NCBI GenBank assembly: GCA_025917655.1
Contig: CP084613.1
Coordinates: forward strand, 4,218,001-4,282,000
Source: Chlorella sorokiniana
Lineage: Eukaryota; Chlorophyta; Trebouxiophyceae; Chlorellales; Chlorellaceae
Direction: 5' to 3'
Length of the DNA stretch: 64,000 nucleotides
The notes under the pieces were generated by a model. That model did not search any database. It was given only the letters and a program-made list of their open reading frames with translations, and had not been told where the DNA came from. Shown here one piece after another: positions 47,590-61,152 of this stretch. The first letter of the stretch is position 1. Each line of letters starts with the position of its first letter. Position numbers and translations under genes: made by a program.

Positions 47590-48064
47590 AGGGGGAGTGA
47601 AAGCCCCAGCCACCCCATCACCTGGGGTACAAATCGTGTGCCAGCCAAGGTCCCGCTGCCGGCGGCGGCTGGCTATTGCGCTGCGCTGCCGCTGCTGGCT
47701 GCGGCGCCAGCAGCCTTTGGCACCTCCTTGCCCAGTGATTTTCACTTTGCACTTGTTCCTGAGTAGACCCTACTGGTGTGTTGGATGGTGGTGGTTTTAT
47801 TGAACTTCTTTGTTGCAGAACTTCTTGTTGCAACGCGTGCCTGCATTCATGAATTTGTGACCGACCTTCCAACCTCCTCCTCTGCCGATGGATCTCGCCT
47901 TTCATATGAACGGATTTGTGACTTTAAAGGCTACAATCCAGAAGTGCTCAGTGTGAAGTCAGCATGTGTGTTTCTTCAAACAAATTGGCTGCGACACCGC
48001 ACACGATGACTACTGAAGTGATCCCTGTATTGTTGGGCTTCGTTCTGTGACAAGCAGGATTGGA
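47590..48064. other. Spacer holding the left edge of the segmental duplication
   Basis: From about 47925 the sequence begins to match 55770 onward, first in patches (gatttgtgactt) and then continuously from about 48003 (tctgaagtgatcc). No gene was recognised. Confidence 0.5.
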
Positions 48065-50193
48065 ATGGAGCCTGGGCTGGAGCCTGCCGCCCTCCAGCTC
48101 GGTGAGAGCGCGAGAGACTTTGTTGCGGGTGCGACCAACCTACGCAGAAGGGCAACCTCTTTATCTGGGCGCCTGGTCACGAGCGCTGAGGGTTGCTGCC
48201 CGGCCGGGTCCCCACCGACGTCGCCCTGCCGCCGCCTCCGTGCCGAGCCCCTCTCCTTGCAGGCGGCATCGGCGGAGCCTGTGGGGTCATTGCAGGGCAG
48301 CCTCTGGACACGATCCGCATCCGCCAGCAGCAGCCTGGCAGCCGCGGAGGAGCGCGGCAGCTTGCGCGGGCAATCCTGGCGGCGGAGGGCGTGCGCTCGC
48401 TCTTCCGCGGCATGGCCTACCCGCTCTGTTCGGCGGCGCTGCAGGTAGGGGGGCCTGCGTGTGCTTGGCGCGCTGATGCTTGCCAGAGCAGCAGGTTTAT
48501 GATGTTTGCGTCCGCCTGCGGGCCGCTGCCTGCGACTGCTTCCGTCCGCTCAGCGGCTGTCCGCCATCGGAAGACGCTGCACCGCCCTCGCTGCTCCTGC
48601 CGTTGCCTGGCTGCAGAACGCAGTGGTGTTCCAGAGTTACGGCGCAGCAGCACGGCACCTCACAGGCGGCAGGGAGGCGCAGCCGCTCTCGCTGGCACAC
48701 GTCTTCTGGGCAGGCTGCTTTGCGGGCGTCGTCCAGACGGTGAGTGCCCGCCGCCTGCCGCTCTTGGGAGCCGCTTGATCGCCACCGCTCGAGCTGCGCG
48801 CCGGGCCGGTGTCAGCACTTCCTGCGGGCCCCTTGACAGGCAGCCTCAGGGTGCCTGCACCGCACAGTCGGCCCCGCCCACGCTGCCAGCTGTCCCCTCC
48901 CAGCGTGCTTCCATGCTGTGCACGCTGAGCAGCGCATGCCTCGCTGCGCCACGCTGCACATGCTGGGTTCCTCTGCAATGCTGAGCATGCTGTGCCTGCT
49001 GTGCAGGCCGTGATCGTGCCCGTCGACCTGCTCAAGATCCGACTGCAGCTGCAGACGGCGCTGCCAGGCAGCCCAGGCTACGTCGGCCCGCTCTCGCTCC
49101 TAGGCCGGGTGCTGCGGCGAGAGGGCCTGCGAGGTGAGCAGGGCGGCGCCTTGCCGCCGACATGGGGACAGCATGCAGGATCGGGACGGGCGTGGGGCTG
49201 GATCGGCTGGTGGCACTAGAAGGGCTCCAGCCGATGCGCCAGCCGCCCTGCAGCGCCTGCCCAGCTGCCACAGCCCATCTGCAGCGTTCCTGCTGCTGCG
49301 GTGACGGCGGCGTGCTGCATGCTGCTGCAGGGCTGTACCGCGGTACCGCCATCACCTGCATACGCGACTTCCCCAGCCACGGCGTGTACTTCAGTGTGTA
49401 CGAGGCCAGCCGGTGAGCAGCGGCACTCCGCCACTGAATGGATGCAGATGCTTCGCCTGCGACAGCCCATCCCGGCTGCTCGCTGGAGGCCAGGCCTGCA
49501 GGGGCGTCGCAGCTGCGCCCTGCTGCGCGCTGCTGCGCATTCGCGGCGCACTCCTGGTCATGCCCCTGCCCCTTCCCGCCCCGCACCACTCCACCCCACT
49601 CCACCCACCCACCCCCTTCCCCACCAGAGAGCTGCTGCAGCCGGGAAGCCGTGCCAGCGGGCGGCGGCAGCGCCGCAGCGCTGTGGGCGGCTGGCGGCCT
49701 GGCAGGGTCCCTCAGCTGGCTGAGCGTCTACCCTTTCGACGTGGTGAAGACGCGGCTGCAGGCGGCAGCGGCGGGGCAGTCGCCCTACGCAGGCAGGGTG
49801 CCGCTGCCGCCGCTTCCATGCTGCATGCCCGGGCTGGCCCACAGCTGATGCTTGCCCCTGCAGCCTGCGGCACGGCCGATCCTCTTTGCTTGCCCTGTGC
49901 TGCGGATGTTGCATGTGCAGTCACAGGCCAGTCTAGCACAGGCCGAAGCTGACGCTGCCTCCCACCTTCACGCGCCCACATGCATCTTGGACCCCCCAAA
50001 AAACAAACAAACAAACACATGCGCACACTTACCCCCCTCCAGCAGGTTGGGTGGACTGCATGCGGCGCAGCTACGCGGCGGAAGGCGCCCGCGTGTTTTC
50101 CGCGGCCTGGGCGCCACCCTGTGCCGAGCTTTCCTCGTCAACGGCGCCATCTTCTCGGCTTATGAGCTCTCACACGGCCTGCTGAAGGGCTAG
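48065..50193 (+). CDS. BAC2: Mitochondrial carrier, BAC2-like basic amino acid transporter
   Basis: The seven exons are 48065-48128, 48263-48444, 48617-48739, 49007-49133, 49331-49412, 49628-49792 and 50046-50193, with matching phases. They total 891 bases (297 codons including the stop). The three carrier signatures are PLDTIRIRQQQ, PVDLLKIRLQLQ and PFDVVKTRLQ. They alternate with the even-helix blocks NAVVFQSYGAAARHL, LYRGTAITCIRDFPSHGVYF and FRGLGATLCRAFLVNGAIFS. The PLDTxRIRQQQ signature and the spacing match Arabidopsis BAC2, an inner-membrane arginine/ornithine carrier, better than other SLC25 members. Exon 6 has one surplus base in a G/C run and exon 7 lacks one T in TTTT; both are likely base-call errors. 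The intron after exon 6 has a GC donor (GCAG|GCAGGG). Substrate assignment is by similarity only. Confidence 0.88.
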
Positions 50194-51232
50194 CTGCCGC
50201 CGCGCCGTCCGTGGCCAGCCAGGCAGGGAGAGCTTGCTTGATCTGATGCCTGGCCAGCTGTGGCTGGGCTGTCGAGGTTGCTCCAGCCCGGCAAGCCAGC
50301 CAGCCTTAGCCCTGCTGGCCAGCCAGTTCTAGCAAGTCGGAGGGAGGCGGGAGCTTACACGGTCGCCCGTCTTGCTGCAGCGCGCTGGCGGCGGCGGCGG
50401 CCCCAGCGGGGGCAGATGGGGCTGGGCAGTCAGGGCAGCTGGGCAACGTTTGCCCGCTGCACCCGTTTTGGGCGGCGCAGCGAACGACGCCGCAGCTTCC
50501 AGGCAGGTTCAGTCAGCTCCTGTACTGCCAGTCAAGCCTGGGGGTCTGAAACGCGTCAGGGGCCGGCAGGGAAGCGGGCACATGGCTGGACACGCCAGCA
50601 AGCCCGCGTGCTGTCCGATCATGTCATTCATTTCGTTTCCGGATCAACGCTGCCATTGATAACCTTGTAGCTTCAAGCTGGAACGTGCCTTCGGATCTGA
50701 GGAGCCAGCCTTTGCCTGTACCACGGCTGCGGCAATGGCGGACTTGGCTGCTGCCGCTGCGGCCGGCAGCGGAGGACGGCACGCAGGTTGGTGCCGCTGC
50801 TCTGCCCCTGGTGGTTTGTTGTGGCAGTGCTGGGTCATGGGTTTGCAGATTGTGAAAGCCGATCTCTATGCTGGTTTGGAGTGGCCTGGGGCTGCAGCAC
50901 CCTCCAGCAGCCCAGTGATGGCGGCACCGGCCCCCTCCCCCCCTCCTCAGCTCCCGCGGCGCAGGCCAGCACCCGTCGGAAGCCGCGCAACCGGTAAGCA
51001 GCAGCCGCCGTTGACGTGTTTGCCGTGTCCACGGGGTACCCCAGTTTCAAGGAACAACTGCCACAGAGCTTCCCCGGCTGCTTGGGCAGCTGTTGAGGAA
51101 GTCCACGCGGCAGCACGGGGTTGAGCCTATAAAAGCCTCTTTCTAGCCATTCGATCAATCCAATCCCATCCTTCTGGCCCCTTGACACGACAAGGAAACA
51201 CAGAGAACCCCACAAACGCTATCGCGAGGGAC
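50194..51232. other. Flank between the carrier and Gly-rich genes, copy 1
   Basis: From about 50222 this matches 56733-57738 closely. It ends in the promoter of the Gly-rich gene. No separate gene is supported, although a short frame from 50735 (ADLAAAAAAGSGGRHAG) is kept in both copies and could be a 5' exon. Confidence 0.5.
51128..51134 (+). promoter_or_regulatory. TATA box of Gly-rich gene copy 1
   Basis: TATAAAA lies 105 bases before the ATG at 51233 and is conserved in position and sequence in copy 2. It is the clearest core promoter in the window. Confidence 0.75.
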
Positions 51233-54200
51233 ATGCGAGTCTCGCGCCTGACGCTGGGCCTGGCCCTCGTGGGCCTGCTCTTCGCCGCGCATGCAAGTGC
51301 TAAACCGTGGTGAGATCAATGGCCGCGCTGCAAGCCGGCCCCGAGATCGTGCTGTGCGCAACGGGCGCAAGCGCGCCGGCAGCCGGCTGTCGTCCACTGG
51401 CCGCACATTAGTGTTGCTCTGCTGTGCAGGGATGCTGCTCGTCGCCGCCGCCTGGCTAATGCTGGAGCTGGAGGAGACTGCGGATGCGGAGGCCATTCCT
51501 ATGTGTGATTCCCGTGCCGCCCCGCACCCAGCGTTCATTCCCACAAGCCGCTGCCGCTGCCGCTGCCGGTACAGGCTCGCCGCCCACAGTCCGGCTCCTC
51601 AACCGCTTCTGTCCTGCCGCCCTCCCTTTGACTCGATCCTGCAGGCTCTGGTGTCGCAGGTCAGGGAGGCAATGGGGGCAACGGCGGCGATGGCGGGAGC
51701 TCCTACGGTGAGCTGGGCTGCCCTGCACGCGAGGGTGCTGCGGAGCCAGCCCGGGCGGCGCGGCGGCCCTGTTGGGAAGGGCAGGCGTCAGTTAGCTCAA
51801 AGCTGGGCAGCTGACGGCTCGACTGCGCGCTGGCGAACCTTCTTTTTTTGGAACCCCCTCTGCAGGCTACTACCCTCCCACCTGCCACGGCCATGACTGC
51901 ATGCCAAGTGAGCGCCGCCGGCTGCCTGCACGCTGCCGCCGCCGCTGCTGCCACCGCCTGCTGCGTCCACCACCTCTGCTACTGGCGGCGCCGCCGCACT
52001 TCCTGTCTCCTTGTTCTGCCTTTCTCAGCACACGCCTCCGCCACTGGCTGCTGGTTGGATGCCTCCTGCGCCTTACCCCCCGTGCGCCCCTCCCCTCCCC
52101 CACACAACCCCTCAACAGAGTGCCACTCCTGCGACGACGCCCACCATCCGCCCCAGCAGCGCGTGGTGACCCGCAGCGGCGGCATCTACGCCTTCTCCGC
52201 GCCCTGCTGGTGGAAGCCGTACGTTGCAGGCCACCTGGACCAATGCACCGTGTTCAACACCACCGGACGCACCTCCCCCTCCCTCTGCGGCGACGGCCAC
52301 TGCTACATCCAGATCAAGCTGCCCGGCTCCCACTGCCCCGTCTGGGTGATTGACAGCAAGTGCGGCGCGGGCCAGGAGGCGCACAAGCCCTGGGGAGGCT
52401 GGGATGCCACCTGCGGCGGCGGCAAGGTGGATCATGGGGACAGCTGGCACCCGTCTGGCGGCAACGGCGGCGACGGCGGTGATGGCGGCGCCGGCGGGGA
52501 CGGAGGCAACTCGTACGGTGGGCCCAGCCGCCTGCCCGCCCGGCTGCCGCTCGCTGTTACAATCCACTGCCCCTGGGGCGCTGCCAGCAGGCAGCTGGGC
52601 GGTCCCTCTCCCTCTCAGCCCCACCCTCATCATGCCCAGCAAGCTGTGTCCCGGCTGCAGGCCCTGGCGATGCAGGCGATGGCGGCAACGGCGGCGCTGG
52701 TGGCGATGGCGGCGACTCCTCTGGCGGTGGCAATGCCGGTATGTGTTTGGGGGGCAATGATTGGCTGCCTCTGGTGCTGGCATCTGCCCTGTTAGCGTTG
52801 TTGCTTGTCAAGCCTCACTTCTCTTTCCTTTGTAACTGTGTTTCAGGCGATGGTGGCAACGGCGGTCCTGGTGGCGATGGCGGCGACTCCTCTGGCGGTG
52901 GCAATGCCGGTGGGTGATTGACTGCAGGCTCCATTTGCTGCCGCGTTGTGTTGGTGGTCCATGTGATTGACTCTTCTTACCACTTGGCTGTCTGTGTTTC
53001 AGGCGACGGTGGCGACGGCGGTGCTGGCGGCGATGGCGGCGACTCCTGGGACGGTGGCGATGCCGGTGGGTGTTTGTGAGGGCAATGACCGGCTTCCTCT
53101 GGTGCTTGCATCTGCACTGTTGGCGTTGTTGCATGCCAAGCCTCACTTCTGTCTCCTTGCAACTGTGTTTCAGGCGACGGTGGCAACGGCGGTGCTGGCG
53201 GCGATGGTGGCAATTCCACTGACGGAGGCCATGCTGGTGTGTGTGTGTGTGTGTGTGTAGGTGTGCGCGGGCCCCGGCCGCTGTCGTTTTGTGTTGCTGG
53301 TCCATTTTACTAATTCTCCCCTTACCGCTTGGCTGTCCGTGCTTCAGGCGACTGTGGCAACGGCGGTGCTGGTGGCGATGGCGGCGACTCCTGGGACAGT
53401 GGCGATGCCGGTGGGTGCTCAGGGGGCAATGACTGGCTGTCTATGCTGCTGGCATCTGCCTTGTTGGCGCTGTCGCATGTCAAGCCTCACTGCTCTTTCC
53501 TTGCCGCCACTGTGATTCAGGCGACGGTGGCAACGGCGGTGCCGGCGGCAATGGTGGCAATTCCACTGATGGCGGCCATGCCGGTGTGTGTGTGTGTGTG
53601 CGGGCCCCAGCTGCTGCTGCTTTTCGGTTGGCTGTCCACGCAACTGACTCTCCCCTTCCTTCCCACTTGTCTGTCGGTGCAGGCGACGGTGGCAACGGCG
53701 GTGCTGGTGGCGATGGTGGGGACTCCACTGATGGCGGCCATGCCGGTGTGTGTGGTTGTGTGCGGGCCCAAGGCTGCTGCTGCTTTTTGGATGGCTGTCC
53801 ACGTAACTGACTCTCCCCTTCCTTCCCACTTGTCTGTCGGTGCAGGCGACGGTGGCAACGGCGGTGCTGGTGGCGATGGTGGGGACTCCACTGATGGCGG
53901 CCATGCCGGTGGGTGTGGGTGTGTGTGGGCCCTAACCTCTGCTGCTTTTCGGCTGGCTGTCCACGTAACTGACTCTCCCCTTCCTTCCCACTTGTCTGTC
54001 GGTGCAGGCGACGGTGGCAACGGCGGTGCTGGTGGCGATGGTGGGGACTCCACTGATGGCGGCCATGCCGGTGTGTGTGGGTGTGTGCGGGCCCAAGGGG
54101 CTGCTGCTTTTTGGATGGCTGTCCACGTAACTTACTCTTCCCCTTCCTTCCCACTTGTCTGTCGCTGCAGGCGACGGTGGCAACGGCGGTGCTGGTGGCG

Positions 54201-54717
54201 ATGGTGGGGACTCCACTGATGGCGGCCATGCCGGTGTGTGTGGGTGTGTGCGGGCCCCAGCCGCCTCTGCTTTCGGTTGGCTGTCCACGGAACTGACTCT
54301 CCCCTTCCTGCCCACTTTTCTGTCGCTGCAGGCGACGGTGGCAACGGCGGTGCTGGTGGCGATGGTGGCGATTCCACTGATGGCGGCCATGCCGGTGTGT
54401 GTGGTTGTGTGCGGGCCCAAGGCTGCTGCTGCTTTTTGGATGGCTCCACGTGACTAACTCTTTCCCTTCCTGCCCACTTTTCTGTCGCTGAAGGCGACGG
54501 TGGCAACGGCGGTGCTGGTGGCGATGGTGGGGACTCCACTGATGGCGGCCATGCCGGTGTGTGTGGGTGTGTGCGGGCCCCAGCCGCTTCTGCTTTTCGG
54601 TTGGCTGTCCACGGAACTGACTCTCCCCTTCTTGCCCATCTGTCTGTCGCTGCAGGCGACGGTGGCAACGGCGGTGCTGGTGGCGATGGTGGGGACTCCA
54701 CTGACGGCGGCCATGCC

Positions 54718-54772
<55 letters not shown>

Positions 54773-55195
54773 CGACGGGGAGGGTGCAACGGGTTGCCGC
54801 TGTCGCTGCCAGAACCTGCCTTGTTCGCGTCATCGTTTTTCAAGCCTCACTTATCTTCCCTATCCTGTGTTCAGGCGATGGCGGCGATGGCGGTGCTGGT
54901 GGCGACGGTGGAGACGCCTCTGGCGGTGGCAACGCTGGGGATGGCGGGAATGGAGGCGATGGCGGGAACGGGGGCGATGGCGCGAACGGGGGCGATGGCG
55001 GGAACGGGGGCGATGGCGGTGCTGGCGGTGACTCCATCGGTGAGCGATGCGGCTGCGGGGCAGCTTCTGCGGGAAGAACCTTTATATAGGTGGCCAACCA
55101 TGTTGGTTCCTGCCTGGCCTGCTGCCATTTTGAACCTCCGTTTGCCCCGCCCTGCTGCAGGCCGCAAGATGAAGCTCCGCCGCGCGATGTTCTGA
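51233..55195 (+). CDS. Secreted Cys-rich, Gly/Asp-repeat protein, copy 1 (12 array exons)
   Basis: I find no known family. The exon model is 51233-51309, 51430-51503, 51645-51707, 51866-51907, 52119-52517 and 52661-52738. Then come twelve 63-nt exons starting at 52847, 53003, 53174, 53348, 53521, 53683, 53846, 54008, 54171, 54332, 54494 and 54656. The last two exons are 54875-55039 and 55161-55195. The total is 1689 bases, exactly 563 codons. Exon 1 is a signal peptide (LTLGLALVGLLFAAHASA). Exons 2-4 add AGAGGDCGCGGHSYG and PPTCHGHDCMP. Exon 5 is a 133-residue domain with nine Cys (IYAFSAPCWWKPYVAG, LCGDGHCYIQIKLPGSHCPV). Each array exon encodes GDGGNGGxGGDGGDS plus six residues. All joins from exon 2 on are phase 1. 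The end is basic (RKMKLRRAMF). A cell-wall or matrix role is inferred. The exon 2 donor lacks one G that copy 2 has. Confidence 0.8.
52661..55039 (+). repeat. Tandem array of phase-1 exons, copy 1
   Basis: Twelve 63-nt exons lie between a 78-nt leading and a 165-nt closing exon of the same repeat type. Introns fall into three sequence types. The last seven 63-nt exons are separated by one type of 98-100 bases, giving a unit of 161-163 bases. Several of these exons are identical or differ by one or two bases, so amplification is recent. Confidence 0.88.
54719..54771. repeat. (TG)n microsatellite at a splice donor
   Basis: About 26 TG units follow the exon end directly, so the GT donor itself is part of the repeat. 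It lies in the last array intron of copy 1 and is absent from copy 2. Confidence 0.95.
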
Positions 55196-55925
55196 GCTGT
55201 GTCAGCGCCAAGCAAGCGATTCATCGAGCTGTCAGTCCGCGACGCTGCGTCGGAGCCGCCTGCCCAGTCAGCTGGCTTTCCGGATCTGTTTTCATTGTTG
55301 TGTTAGATTTCTGCGATGCGGGTGTCATGGCTCCCCACCCATGGTGCTCATGCATCCTCCCGTTACTTTCCCTTCATCCCAGCCAGTGATCCTTTCCCGA
55401 TGTTCTATTGTATGCTCTGAGCGCTCCCCCATCAGCAGTTCATTCCTGATCCTGATTTGCTGATTCCATGGGTGCCCCTGCACTAGCGGGGCTGGCTGGG
55501 CACGCGCCTTGGCCTTGCCCCTTTTCGAATCCTCTGTGATACCGTTGACCCCTGATACCCTGCTGTGACCGTTGCTTGATTCAACCTTTTTATTACCTCC
55601 CCGTTCAATGGTTTTCATCTTCCTCTGACCATTGAATAGATCTTTCTGGTTTTTTGTTGAACTTGTAAGACAGTCCTGCTCCGCCATGCTGCTCCGCCAC
55701 AAGGCCCATGTGACTTTTCTTCCCGGCCAGTCGTCAGCCAATCTCTCCTGTCGACTTCCCTTCAATAGCAGATTTGTGACTTGAGGGGGATGCACTCTGA
55801 GAAAGCTGAGTGGGTTGTGCAAGGAGTCAGGCCACCTCTGGCCCATATGGCGGCGTTTCGCGTACAATGGTGTCTGAAGTGATCCATGCATTGCTAGGCA
55901 TCGTTGCGCAATAAAGAGCACCGAA
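55196..55925. other. 3' flank of Gly-rich gene copy 1 and junction between duplicate copies
   Basis: Up to about 55590 this matches 61153-61530. A TGTAA at 55664-55668 may end the transcript. The junction between copies lies at about 55590-55770, where I see no element or terminal repeat. Confidence 0.5.
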
Positions 55926-56606
55926 ATGGAGCCTGGGCTGGAGCCTGCCGGCCTCCAGCTACTGAGAGCGCGAGAGATTTTGTTGCAGGCGCGACCAAAG
56001 TACTCCACAGGGCTCCCAACCTGTTTGTCTGGGCGCCAGACCAACAGCGCTGCGGGTGCTGCCCGGCCGGGCCCCCACCGACGTCGCCCTGCCGCTGCCT
56101 CCTGAGCCGAGCCGCCTCTGCTTGCAGGCGGCATCGGCGGAGCCTGCGGGGTCATTGCAGGGCAGCCGCTGGACACAATCCGCATCCGTCAGCAGCAGCA
56201 TGGCAGCCGCGGAGGAGCGCGGCAGCTTGCGCGGGCAATCCTGGCGGCGGAGGGCATGCGCTCGCTCTTCCGCGGCATGGCCTACCCGCTTTGCACGGCG
56301 GCGCTGCAAGTAGGAGGGGCCTGCGTGTGCTTGCCAGCGCAGCAGGCTAATGATGTTTGAGTCCCCGCCTGCAGGCCGCTGCCTGCGCCTGCTTTCGTCC
56401 GCTCAGCGGCTGTCTGCCACCGGGAGATGCTGCACAGCCACTGCCGCACCGCCCTCGCTGCCCCACCCGCTGCCTGGCTGCAGAATGCGGTGGTCTTCCA
56501 GAGCTACGGCGCAGCAGCACGGCACCTCACAGGCGACAGGGAGGCGCAGCCGCTCTCGCTGGCACACGTCTTCTGGGCAGGTTGCTTTGCGGGCGTCGTC
56601 CAGACG
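55926..56606 (+). pseudogene. Truncated BAC2-like carrier (exons 1-3 only)
   Basis: Exon 1 (from 55926), exon 2 (56128-56309) and exon 3 (56484-56606) match exons 1-3 of the carrier at 48065. Exon 2 still reads GVIAGQPLDTIRIRQQQ and exon 3 reads NAVVFQSYGAAARHLTG, with intact splice sites. Exons 4-7, coding for the second and third carrier repeats, are gone through one deletion ending near 56735. Exon 1 has also lost a base next to its end (CAGCTACTGAG against CAGCTCGGTGAG). Without two of the three repeats no transporter can form, so this is a dead copy. Confidence 0.88.
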
Positions 56607-57738
56607 GTGAGTGCCCGCCGCCTACCGCTCTTAGCCGCTTGATGGCCACCCCTCAAGCTGCGCACCTTTCCGGTGTCGGTGTCAGCGCTTCCTGCGGGCC
56701 CTGACAGGCAGCCTCAGGGTGTGTGCACCGCACTGGGGAGAGCTTGCTTGATCTGATGCCTGGCCAGCTGTGGCTGGGCTGTCGAGGTTTCTCCAGGCTG
56801 GCAAGCCAGCCAGCCTTAGCCCTGCTGGCCAGCCAGTTCTAGCAAGTCGGAGGGAGGCGGGAGCTTACACGGTCGCCCGTCTTGCTGCAGCGCGCTGGCG
56901 GCGGCGGCGGCCCCAGCGCGGGGCAGATGGTGCCGGGCAGTCAGGGCAGCTGGAAACGTATGCCGGCTGCACCCTGCGGTGGGCAGCGCAGCGAACGACG
57001 ATGCAGCTTCCAGGCAGGTTCAGTCAACTCCTGTACTGCCGGTCAAGCCTGGGGGTCTGAGAGGCGTCGCAGGCCGGCAGGGATGCGGGCACCTGGCTGG
57101 ACACGGCAGCAAGCCCGCACATTGTCTGATCATTTCATTCATTTCGTTTTCGTGTCAACGCTGCCATTGGTACCTTGCAGCTTCAAGCTGGAATGTGCCT
57201 TTGGATCTGAGGAGCCAGCCTTTGCCTGTACCACGGCTGCGGCAATGGCGGATTTGGCTGCTGCCGCTGCGGCCGGCAGCGGAGGACGGCACGCAGGTTG
57301 GTGGCGCTGCTCTGCCCCTGGTAGTTTGTAGTGGCAGTGCTGGGTCATGGGTTTTCAGATTGTGAATGCCGATCTCTATGCTGGTTTGGAGTGGCCTGGG
57401 GCTGCAGCACCCTCCAGCAGCCCAGTGATGGCGGCACCGGCCCCCTCCCCCCTCCTCGGCTCCCGCGGCGCAGGCCAGCACCCGTCTGCAGCCGCGGAAC
57501 CGGTAAGCAGCAGCCGGCATTGACGTGTTTGCCGTGTCCACGGTCCCCAGTTTCGAGGAACAACTGCCACAGAGCTTCCCCGGCTGCTTGTGCAGCTGGC
57601 CAGGAAGTCCACGCGGCAGCACGGGGTTGAGCCTATAAAAGCCTCCTTCTAGCAATTTGATCAATCCAATCCCATCCTTCTGGCCCCTTGACACGACAAG
57701 GAAACACAGAGAACCCCACAAACGCTATCGCGAGAGAC
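56607..57738. other. Deletion junction and promoter flank of Gly-rich gene copy 2
   Basis: The deletion junction is at about 56735 (caccgcac joined to ggggagagcttgc). From there on the sequence follows copy 1 from 50222 up to the promoter. No further gene is supported. Confidence 0.55.
57634..57640 (+). promoter_or_regulatory. TATA box of Gly-rich gene copy 2
   Basis: TATAAAA lies 105 bases before the ATG at 57739, the same spacing as in copy 1. Confidence 0.75.
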
Positions 57739-58989
57739 ATGCGAGTCTCGCGCCTGACGCTGGGCCTGGCCCTCGTGGGCCTGCTCTTCGCCGCGCATGC
57801 AAGTGCTAAACCGTGGTGAGATCAATGGCCGCGCTGCAAGCCGGCCCCGAGATCGTGCTGTGCGCAAGGGGGCGCCCTGTCGCCGACAGCCGGCTGTCGT
57901 CCACTGGCCGCACATTAGTGTTGCTCTGCTGTGCAGGGATGCTGCTCGTCGCCGCCGCCTGGCTAATGCTGGAGCTGGAGGAGACTGCGGATGCGGAGGC
58001 CATTCCTATGGTGTGATTCCCGTGCCGCCCCGCACCCAGCGTTCATTCCCACAAGCCGCTGCCGCTGCCGCTGCCGGTACAGGCTCGCCACCCACAGTCC
58101 GGCTCCTCACCCACTTCTGCCCCGCCGCCCCTCCCTTTGACTCGATCCTGCAGGCTCTGGTGTCGCAGGTCAGGGAGGCAATGGGGGCAACGGTGGCGAT
58201 GGCGGGAGCTCCTACGGTGAGCTGGGCTGCCCCTGCACGCGAGGGTGCTGCGGAGCCAGCCCGGGCGGCGGCGGCCCTGTTGGGAGGGGCAGGCATCAGT
58301 TAGCTCAAAGCTGGGCAGATGACGGCCCGACTGCGCGCTGGCGAACCTTCTTTTTTGGAACCCCCTCTGCAGGCTACTACCCTCCCACCTGCCACGGCCA
58401 TGACTGCATGCCAAGTGAGCGCCGCCGGCTGCCTGCACGCTGCCGCCGCCGCTGCTGCCAGCGCTTGCTGCGCCCACCACCTCTGCTCCCGGCGGCGCAG
58501 CCGCACTTCCTGCCTGCCGCTTTCTGCCGCCTTGTTCTGCCTTTTTCAGCACCCGCTTCCGCCAGTGGCTGCTGGTTGGATGCCTCCTGCGCCTCACCCC
58601 CGCCGTGTGCCCCTCCCTCTCCCCCTCACACAACCCCTCAACAGAGTGCCACTCTTGCGACGACGCCCATCACCCGCCCCAGCAGCGTGTGGTGACCCGC
58701 AGCGGCGGCATCTACGCCTTCTCCGCGCCCTGCTGGTGGAAGCCGTACGTTGCAGGCCACCTGGACCAATGCACCGTGTTCAACACCACCGGACGCACCT
58801 CCCCCTCCCTCTGCGGCGACGGCCACTGCTACATCCAGATCAAGCTGCCCGGCTCCCACTGCCCCGTCTGGGTGATCGACAGCAAGTGCGGCGCGGGCCA
58901 GGAGGCGCACAAGCCCTGGGGAGGCTGGGATGCCACCTGCGGCGGCGGCAAGGTGGACCATGGGGACAGCTGGCACCCGTCTGGCGGCA

Positions 58990-59022
<33 letters not shown>

Positions 59023-61152
59023 GGGACGGAGGCAACTCGTACGGTGGGCCCAGCCGCCTGCCCGCCCGGCTGCCGCTCGCTGTTACAATCCACTGCCCCT
59101 GGGGCGCTGCCAGCAGGCAGCTGGGCGGTCCCTCTCCCTCTCAGCCCCACCCTCATCATGCCCAGCAAGCTGTGTCCCGGCTGCAGGCCCTGGCGATGCA
59201 GGCGATGGCGGCAACGGCGGCGCTGGTGGCGATGGCGGCGACTCCTCTGGCGGTGGCAATGCCGGTATGTGTTTGGGGGGCAATGATTGGCTGCCTCTGG
59301 TGCTGGCATCTGCCCTGTTAGCGTTGTTGCTTGTCAAGCCTCACTTTTCTTTCCTTGCAACTGTGTTTCAGGCGATGGTGGCAATGGCGGTCCTGGTGGC
59401 GATGGCGGCGACTCCTCTGGCGGTGGCAATGCCGGTGGGTGTTTGTTTGCAGGCTCCATTTGCTGCCGCGTTGTGTTGGTGGTCCATGTGACTGACTCTC
59501 CCCTTCCCAACCCTCTGTCGCTTCAGGCGATGGTGGCAACGGCGGTCCTGGTGGCGATGGCGGCGACTCCTCTGGCGGTGGCAACGCCGGTATGTGTTTA
59601 TGGGGGCATTGACTGGCTGCCTCTGCTGCTGGCATCTGTCCTGATCGCGTTGTTGCATGTCAAGCCTCACTTTTCTTTCCTTTGTAACTGTGATTCAGGC
59701 GATGGTGGCAACGGCGGTCCTGGTGGCGATGGCGGCGACTCCTCTGGCGGTGGCAACGCCGGTATGTGTTTATGGGGGCATTGACTGGCTGCCTCTGCTG
59801 CTGGCATCTGTCCTGATCGCGTTGTTGCATGTCAAGCCTCACTTTTCTTTCCTTTGCAACTGTGATTCAGGCGATGGTGGCAATGGCGGTCCTGGTGGCG
59901 ATGGCGGCGACTCCTCTGGCGGTGGCAATGCCGGTGGGTGTTTGTTTGCAGGCTCCAGCCGCTGCCGCGTTGTGTTGGTGGTCCATGTGACTGACTCTCC
60001 CCTTCCCAACCCTCTGTCGCTTCAGGCGATGGTGGCAACGGCGGTCCTGGTGGCGATGGTGGCGACTCCTGGGATGGTGGCCATGCCGGTATGTGTTTGG
60101 GGGGCAATGACTGGCTGCCTCTGCTGCTGGCATCTGCCCTGTTAGCGTTATTGCATATCAAGCCTCACTTTCCTTGCCTTGCTATTGTGATTCAGGCGAC
60201 GGTGGCAACGGCGGCCCTGGTGGCGATGGTGGCGACTCCTGGGATGGTGGCCATGCCGGTATGTGTTTTGGGGGCAATGTCTGGCTGCCTTTGCTGCTGG
60301 CATCTGCCCTGTTTACGTTGTTGCATGTCAAGCCTCACTTTTCTTTCCTTTGTAACTGTGATTCAGGCGATGGTGGCAATGGCGGTCCTGGTGGCGATGG
60401 CGGCGACTCCTGGGATGGTGGCCATGCCGGTATGTGTTTTGGGGGCAATGTCTGGCTGCCTTTGCTGCTGGCATCTGCCCTGTTTGCGTTGTTGCATGTC
60501 AAGCCTCACTTTTCTTTCCTTGCTATTGTGATTCAGGCGACGGTGGCAACGGCGGTCCTGGTGGCGATGGTGGCGACTCCACTGACGGTGGCCACGCCGG
60601 TGGGTGTGCGTGTGTGCGGGCCCCAGGCGCCTCTGCTTTTCGGTTGGCTGTCCACTTAACTGACTCTCCCCTTCCTGCCCACCTGTCTGTCGCTGCAGGC
60701 GACGGTGGCAACGGCGGTCCTGGTGGCGATGGTGGTGATTCCACTGACGGTGGTGACGCCGGTGGGTTGGTTTGTCTGTGTCCTGGGGGAGGGTGCAACG
60801 GTTTGCCGCTGTCGCTGCCAGAACCTGCCTTGTTCGCGTCATCGTTCATCAAGCCTCACTTGTCTTCCCCTATCCTGTGTTCAGGCGATGGCGGCGATGG
60901 CGGTGCTGGTGGCGACGGTGGAGACGCCTCTGGCGGGGGCACCGCTGGGGATGGCGGGAATGGAGGCGATGGCGGTGCTGGCGGTGACGCCATCGGTGAG
61001 CGATGCGGCTGCTGGGCACCTTCTGCAGGAACCACCTCAACCTCAATACAGGTGGCCAGCCATGTTGCTCTGGCCTGCTGCCATCCTTGAACCTCCGTTT
61101 GCCCCGCCCTGCTGCAGGCCGCAAGATGAAGCTTCGCCGCGCGATGTTCTGA
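57739..61152 (+). CDS. Secreted Cys-rich, Gly/Asp-repeat protein, copy 2 (9 array exons)
   Basis: The exon model is 57739-57815, 57937-58010, 58154-58216, 58373-58414, 58645-59043 and 59187-59264. Nine 63-nt exons follow, starting at 59372, 59527, 59699, 59871, 60026, 60196, 60367, 60537 and 60699. The last two exons are 60885-60995 and 61118-61152. The total is 1446 bases, exactly 482 codons. The signal peptide, exon 5 domain and basic C-terminus are the same as in copy 1. Most array exons here read GDGGNGGPGGDGGDS followed by SGGGNA or WDGGHA, with Pro where copy 1 mostly has Ala. The closing exon is 54 bases (three GNGGDG-type units) shorter than in copy 1. The exon 2 donor is normal (TATG|GTGTGA). 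All joins keep phase 1, and no frame break was found. The intact state of both genes argues that both are in use. Confidence 0.8.
59187..60995 (+). repeat. Tandem array of phase-1 exons, copy 2
   Basis: Nine 63-nt exons lie between a 78-nt and a 111-nt exon. Most introns are of the type starting gtatgtgttt, about 107-109 bases long, giving a unit of 170-172 bases. A second type of about 92 bases gives units of 155. The type that dominates copy 1 occurs only once. Confidence 0.88.

Follow-up and report, generated by a model that had tools for sequence, protein, structure and literature searches.

Within a 64,000-nucleotide (nt) stretch of contig CP084613.1 of the green alga Chlorella sorokiniana (hereafter the window), a gene at 51233-55195 (gene 1) is distinct in that most of its exons form an array in which each exon of constant length corresponds to one Gly/Asp-rich repeat. 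The genome of this alga includes a plastid-type contig (C15) whose psaB is nearest, among PDB chains, to 6zzx_B, a Chlorella ohadii entry, with a lead of 78 bits on the second-best chain, and a Chlorella-like host is taken from this. As a sequence feature this exon array is real, and its coding and splicing are supported by comparison of its copies. The reading that we consider the probable one, and which draws on what can be taken directly from the DNA (exon sizes and phases, 12 versus 9 copies, protein constraint, and common splice signals), is that gene 1 is a real multi-exon nuclear green-algal gene, one of two tandem paralogues, that it probably encodes a secreted, acidic, Gly/Asp-rich wall or matrix protein, and that its length changes by exon-intron units.

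The array of gene 1 comprises 12 exons of 63 nt between 52847 and 54718, all of them (12/12) of phase 1-1. An earlier note on this DNA had claimed these twelve equal exons, and the span it gave, 52661-55039, correctly runs from exon 6 (78 nt) through the end of exon 19 (165 nt). Each 63-nt exon encodes one 21-residue repeat of the type GDGGNGGAGGDGGDSTDGGHA, with seven triplets per exon, and a glycine codon is split as G/GC at every array junction. The same note proposed GT-AG introns of about 92-111 nt plus one of about 156 nt bearing a TG run, in agreement with the 93-111 nt measured for introns 7-17 and the 156 nt of intron 18. The TG run itself is pure, covers 52 nt (54719-54770), and starts precisely at the donor site; shifted donors are possible where the donor reads GTGTGT, as it does in 8 of the 23 array introns. 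In the model of 563 codons, all exons from 3 to 19 are of phase 1-1.

The tandem paralogue (gene 2, 57739-61152) was absent from the earlier note. Its nine repeat exons against the 12 of gene 1, together with array exons that in both genes measure 63, 78, 111, or 165 nt and are thus all multiples of three, support the proposal that units can be gained or lost without breaking the frame. The protein sequence of the Cys-rich domain is identical in both genes (112 amino acids searched). Searches of the alga's own genome (38.8 Mb, 15 contigs) found only two such genes; because the search scores its best candidates only, the counts are lower bounds. A strict pattern search gave 24 places, all inside the two genes, and 24 of the 25 matches in a repeat search fall in them as well, the remaining one, at E 9.25 on another contig, being taken as chance.

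Four lines of evidence favour coding and splicing, and they are not fully independent, as they use common copies. Between the two genes, exons 1-6 differ at nine codons and all nine differences are synonymous, an outcome with a chance of about 3e-6 if the exons were unselected (synonymous fraction 0.25); the alignment of introns 1-4, over 627 bases, shows 31 differences. In a six-frame test, the predicted frame has no stops and accounts for every codon difference as synonymous (1/1 in exon 3 and 8/8 in exon 5), and the runner-up, minus frame 2, reaches 1/1 and 6/8 but contains stops in both exons. Over the 23 repeat units, that is the 21 exons of 63 nt and both exon-6 ends, variable columns are found at 15 of the 21 third positions, at 8 first positions, and at 2 second positions; third and second positions differ by Fisher's test with P 9e-5, a value to be read with the units being copies and hence non-independent. 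Furthermore, array exons share 88% identity, versus 65% for the introns without gaps (57% with gaps), over 253 pairs. GT and AG are present in all 23 array introns of the two genes, with donors GTGGGT (8), GTGTGT (8), and GTATGT (7) and acceptors CAG (22) and AAG (1). The branch-point-like motif CTNAY lies 22-41 nt 5' of every one of the 23 acceptors. It precedes 99 of the 1949 CAGs located on the plus strand beyond the arrays, and it was present at 8.1% of the random places that served as a second control.

The introns also carry a record of how the array may have grown. From alignments, we grouped them ourselves into class A (107-110 nt, CTCAC in 9/9), class B (92-111 nt, CTGAC in 8/12), and a closing class. 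The array of gene 1 starts with A B A B A and continues with seven B introns, that of gene 2 has the succession A B A A B A A A B, and the closing class stands last in both. The repeat periods given by Tandem Repeats Finder, 162, 325, and 327 nt for gene 1 and 170-172 nt for gene 2, form together with the intron classes the pattern expected from cassette duplication. In a tree of the units, the first two units and the last one pair across genes (support 99/97, 100/92, and, less strongly, 94/56). Separate growth of the arrays after the duplication is a suggestion drawn from unit counts and the order of the introns only. In the mechanism that we propose, a single cassette, made of a 63-nt phase 1-1 exon and an intron of about 100 nt, would have been tandemly duplicated and thereby have lengthened the encoded rod; unequal crossing-over between cassettes would be the source of length change, and the rod is probably still variable in length as exon-intron units are gained or lost. 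The closing exon of gene 1 is longer than that of gene 2 by 54 nt, and so length also varies within an exon. An 18-nt tandem repeat of 4.4 copies is found in this exon at 54940-55019 (Tandem Repeats Finder).

The model protein of gene 1 has 562 residues, with a signal-peptide-like start (judged by eye) followed by DAARRRR and with 13 Cys residues ahead of the repeats. It is probably secreted by way of this N-terminal signal, and we infer a location in the wall or extracellular matrix. The repeat region contains 53% Gly and 18% Asp, acidic residues exceed basic ones by 61, and the computed isoelectric point (pI) is 4.09; from Asp content and pI, cation binding may be proposed. In gene 1, XGG occupies 77 of the 110 triplets of one register and 0 and 3 triplets of the other two, the X position is taken by Asp (42), Asn (17), Ala (14), Gly (3), or Pro (1), and each unit also contains irregular triplets such as DST and HAG. 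The Cys-rich domain would form a disulphide-bonded head, and the XGG repeat an extended, polyglycine-II-like rod whose Asp residues would point outward and bind cations or wall polymers.

Could the array instead be a non-coding, unspliced, minisatellite-like repeat, its 63-nt exons being only apparent, in GC-rich DNA where open frames are plentiful? Such frames are indeed abundant, as each of the two genes is overlain by 13 open reading frames of at least 150 amino acids, counted on both strands, and 8 of the 23 array introns are both stop-free and a multiple of three in length. On the other hand, 11 of these introns have a frame-breaking length, and the longest stop-to-stop stretch among the places scored in the gene 1 array is 376 codons, versus 793 for the whole array. 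No listed open reading frame covers that array (the longest, of 315 amino acids, lies at 51848-52795), and for this reason, and because the six-frame test favours the predicted frame, an unspliced or antisense reading was discarded. In view also of the codon-position bias, the nine synonymous changes out of nine, and the common donors, acceptors, and branch-like motifs, we hold the minisatellite explanation to be highly improbable. The junction between exons 2 and 3 raises a different doubt, namely that gene 1 is a recent pseudogene, that only gene 2 works, and that a frame shift has brought a stop into exon 5 and left the array of gene 1 free to expand. The earlier statement that the gene closes at exactly 563 codons (stop included) falls short at this very place, since it needs an intron 2 starting with TG in gene 1: the sequence at 51503/51504 is CCTATG/TGTGAT (the slash marks the junction), with TG at 51504 as the intron start, versus CCTATG/GTGTGAT in gene 2, where GT is present at 58011. 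If splicing took the GT at 51503, one base upstream, and kept the usual acceptor of exon 3, translation would stop in exon 5, at codon 102, and gene 1 has seven successive introns that belong to one class, which in our reading suggests a recent expansion. However, when exon 1 is held fixed together with the start of exon 2 and the end of exon 3, 16 junctions keep the frame in gene 1, of which 15 have GC donors and one is a canonical GT-AG solution (donor 51503, exon 3 from 51665) giving 556 codons, stop included, at a cost of seven residues relative to the 563-codon model. Moreover, exons 1-6 contain no non-synonymous difference from gene 2, which argues that gene 1 was functional until recently, all 12 repeat exons are intact, and the two genes differ at the donor by one G in a two-G run, where a base error of the assembly is possible. 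Gene 1 may use another junction, carry a recent lesion, or display a one-base assembly error; that it is a pseudogene appears unlikely to us.

A further alternative accepts that the gene is real and spliced and sees in the repeat a disordered, acidic, hydrated chain, as in a gel-forming mucilage or stress protein, with no ordered polyglycine-II rod. The Gly and Asp contents are in line with it, as is the lack of a confident AlphaFold2 structure for one array exon, but the repeat keeps a strict one-phase XGG register and a strict 21-residue period, and the prediction covered one 53-residue piece without relatives, so that its failure says little. We regard this chain as a plausible, though not the probable, state of the protein. 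Several observations count against the reading we prefer, that of a functional, spliced gene whose secreted matrix protein is extended by exon-intron units. AlphaFold2, run without relatives, returned a predicted local distance difference test (pLDDT) score of 49 and no assigned structure for the closing array exon, and a model of pLDDT 40 for the Cys-rich part; the folding into polyglycine II helices put forward in the earlier note is consistent with the XGG register, and the structure prediction speaks neither for nor against it. After exon 2, the GT donor of gene 2 has no counterpart in gene 1. In the tree, units do not group significantly according to their gene, values as low being reached in 70 and 76 of 500 shuffles. 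The 22-41 nt range for CTNAY was fixed after the positions were known, and the introns are themselves mutual copies. Among nine hand-picked pairs of near-kin units, 6 of the 22 codon differences are non-synonymous and 16 synonymous (27% synonymous expected without selection), from which constraint on the repeat is moderate and some change is tolerated. Finally, the alignment of the closing exons has 12 base differences besides the 54-nt gap, and outside this gap we read two amino-acid changes.

The preferred reading can be carried further, to a proposal that we advance tentatively and consider rather doubtful in its full form: a green alga would have independently evolved a collagen-like structural protein, lineage-specific and secreted, in which a Cys-rich head not described before is combined with a polyglycine-II rod made of XGG triplets that bear Asp. 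The number of cassettes would set its length, and recombination, perhaps also exon skipping, would alter this length among paralogues and strains. If true, this would be a convergent, non-animal case of a repetitive glycine-triplet protein built from equal symmetric exons, would provide natural acidic GGX polymers in different lengths, and would allow a test of whether exon-intron cassettes guard repeat proteins from frame loss. With 12 units in one tandem copy and 9 in the other, the course of growth can be read directly.

The features of both genes are collected in the table below. Upstream, a gene that we take, from reading its sequence, to be mitochondrial-carrier-like lies partly in a duplicated segment (48013-48865 versus 55874-56733). 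The match picks up again at 50226 versus 56736, the second copy being without about 1.36 kb that includes the remainder of the carrier gene. Intron 5 (143/143) and exon 6 (78/78) are identical between the copies (52518-52738 versus 59044-59264), which, given the divergence of about 5% in introns 1-4, hints at gene conversion at this place.

Features of gene 1 and of its tandem paralogue in the window (positions counted from the first letter of the window; gene models predicted from sequence)
Feature	Position	Strand	Remarks
Gene 1	51233-55195	+	20 exons
TATAAA, gene 1	51128-51133	+	105 nt 5' of ATG
Exon 1, gene 1	51233-51309	+	ATG, signal-peptide-like N-terminus; 77/77 identical to gene 2
Exon 2, gene 1	51430-51503	+	end at 51503 only with TG donor; 51502 with GT donor
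Exon 3, gene 1	51645-51707	+	short, Gly-rich; 63 nt, phase 1-1 in 563-codon model
Exon 4, gene 1	51866-51907	+	phase 1-1, Cys-containing; 42/42 identical in gene 2
Exon 5, gene 1	52119-52517	+	399 nt; Cys-rich domain, then first GGX stretch
Exon 6, gene 1	52661-52738	+	78 nt; GPGDA, then one 21-residue repeat (first of array)
Repeat exon 7, 63 nt	52847-52909	+	
Repeat exon 8, 63 nt	53003-53065	+	
Repeat exon 9, 63 nt	53174-53236	+	
Repeat exon 10, 63 nt	53348-53410	+	Gly to Cys once
Repeat exon 11, 63 nt	53521-53583	+	
Repeat exon 12, 63 nt	53683-53745	+	
Repeat exon 13, 63 nt	53846-53908	+	
Repeat exon 14, 63 nt	54008-54070	+	
Repeat exon 15, 63 nt	54171-54233	+	
Repeat exon 16, 63 nt	54332-54394	+	followed by the sole array intron with AAG end
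Repeat exon 17, 63 nt	54494-54556	+	
Repeat exon 18, 63 nt	54656-54718	+	
Intron 18, gene 1	54719-54874	+	156 nt; TG run at start
Closing array exon 19, gene 1	54875-55039	+	165 nt; internal 18-nt tandem repeat
Last exon 20, gene 1	55161-55195	+	basic tail GRKMKLRRAMF, TGA
Gene 2, tandem paralogue	57739-61152	+	17 exons, plan as in gene 1
TATAAA, gene 2	57634	+	105 nt 5' of ATG, spacing as in gene 1
Exon 5, gene 2	58645-59043	+	Cys-rich domain
Exon 6, gene 2	59187-59264	+	78 nt, identical to exon 6 of gene 1
Array, gene 2	59372-60761	+	nine 63-nt exons starting at 59372, 59527, 59699, 59871, 60026, 60196, 60367, 60537, 60699
Closing array exon, gene 2	60885-60995	+	111 nt, 54 nt shorter than in gene 1

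Relatives were sought in the own genome and in prokaryote and viral collections. The Cys-rich exon 5 has no Pfam match up to E 10 and none in NCBIfam or among PDB sequences, the whole gene 2 protein matches no Pfam family at E up to 1, and the array exon matches no PDB sequence. A likeness of exon 5 to a double-psi barrel (expansin-like) was considered and dropped on this empty Pfam result, and the best Foldseek value for exon 5 (E 1.1), obtained on the model of pLDDT 40, carries no weight. In IMG/VR, one stretch fitted the pattern of the Cys domain and 181 stretches that of the repeat, and 14 stretches came up in GTDB genomes; none was confirmed in any of the three cases, with Cys-domain and GTDB patterns that reach close relatives only. 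The earlier statement that no described family combines these parts therefore stands for Pfam, NCBIfam, PDB sequences, IMG/VR, and GTDB, a set that covers no eukaryotic protein collection. In the accessible portions of the open-licence literature, no description of this gene or of one-repeat-per-exon Gly/Asp arrays in algae was found.

Among known systems, the glycine-rich wall proteins of plants and algae have a signal-peptide-like start, a Cys-containing part, and a Gly-rich part. The proteins of genes 1 and 2 have these three parts in common with them, with no family model matched, and we know of no such wall protein with one repeat per symmetric exon. Spider dragline silk, an extracellular protein, is described as having poly(Gly-Gly-X) structural repeats (PMC5187823). 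The likeness to silk, an animal protein, is in the GGX repeats.

The PGRS domains of mycobacterial PE_PGRS proteins carry GGX repeats that are modelled as polyglycine-II sandwiches, and they tolerate insertion or deletion of whole segments and vary in length (PMC10216338). The algal proteins resemble them in their GGX repeats and in a length that would change by whole segments, and it is by analogy to these models that an extended, acidic, extracellular rod is proposed here. They differ in having one repeat per exon and an X that is mostly Asp and Asn, and the gene 2 protein has no PE domain match (Pfam, E up to 1). Bacterial genes are not known to have such introns.

The closest parallel in gene architecture is with the collagens, glycine-triplet proteins with many small, frame-neutral exons. 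Their genes are considered to have expanded through the addition of exons, for example by unequal recombination, and 63-bp exons are present in collagens VI, VII, and XIX (PMC4450265). Split glycine codons are discussed for collagen IV (PMC5395295). Like collagen genes, with their 54-bp and related exons and Gly-X-Y repeats, the algal gene models consist of small frame-neutral exons that hold whole glycine triplets (63 nt and phase 1-1, with seven triplets per exon, in 12 exons of gene 1 and nine of gene 2), and, as in collagen IV, glycine codons are split, here at every array junction. The animal proteins have a continuous G-X-Y repeat, whereas the algal one has X-G-G in a 21-residue unit with irregular triplets; an uninterrupted Gly-X-Y is not found, XGG being confined to 77 of 110 triplets and Pfam giving no match at E up to 1. 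As judged from its XGG triplets and from the lack of a Pfam family for the gene 2 protein, the predicted gene is one that works like a collagen gene and is not a collagen.

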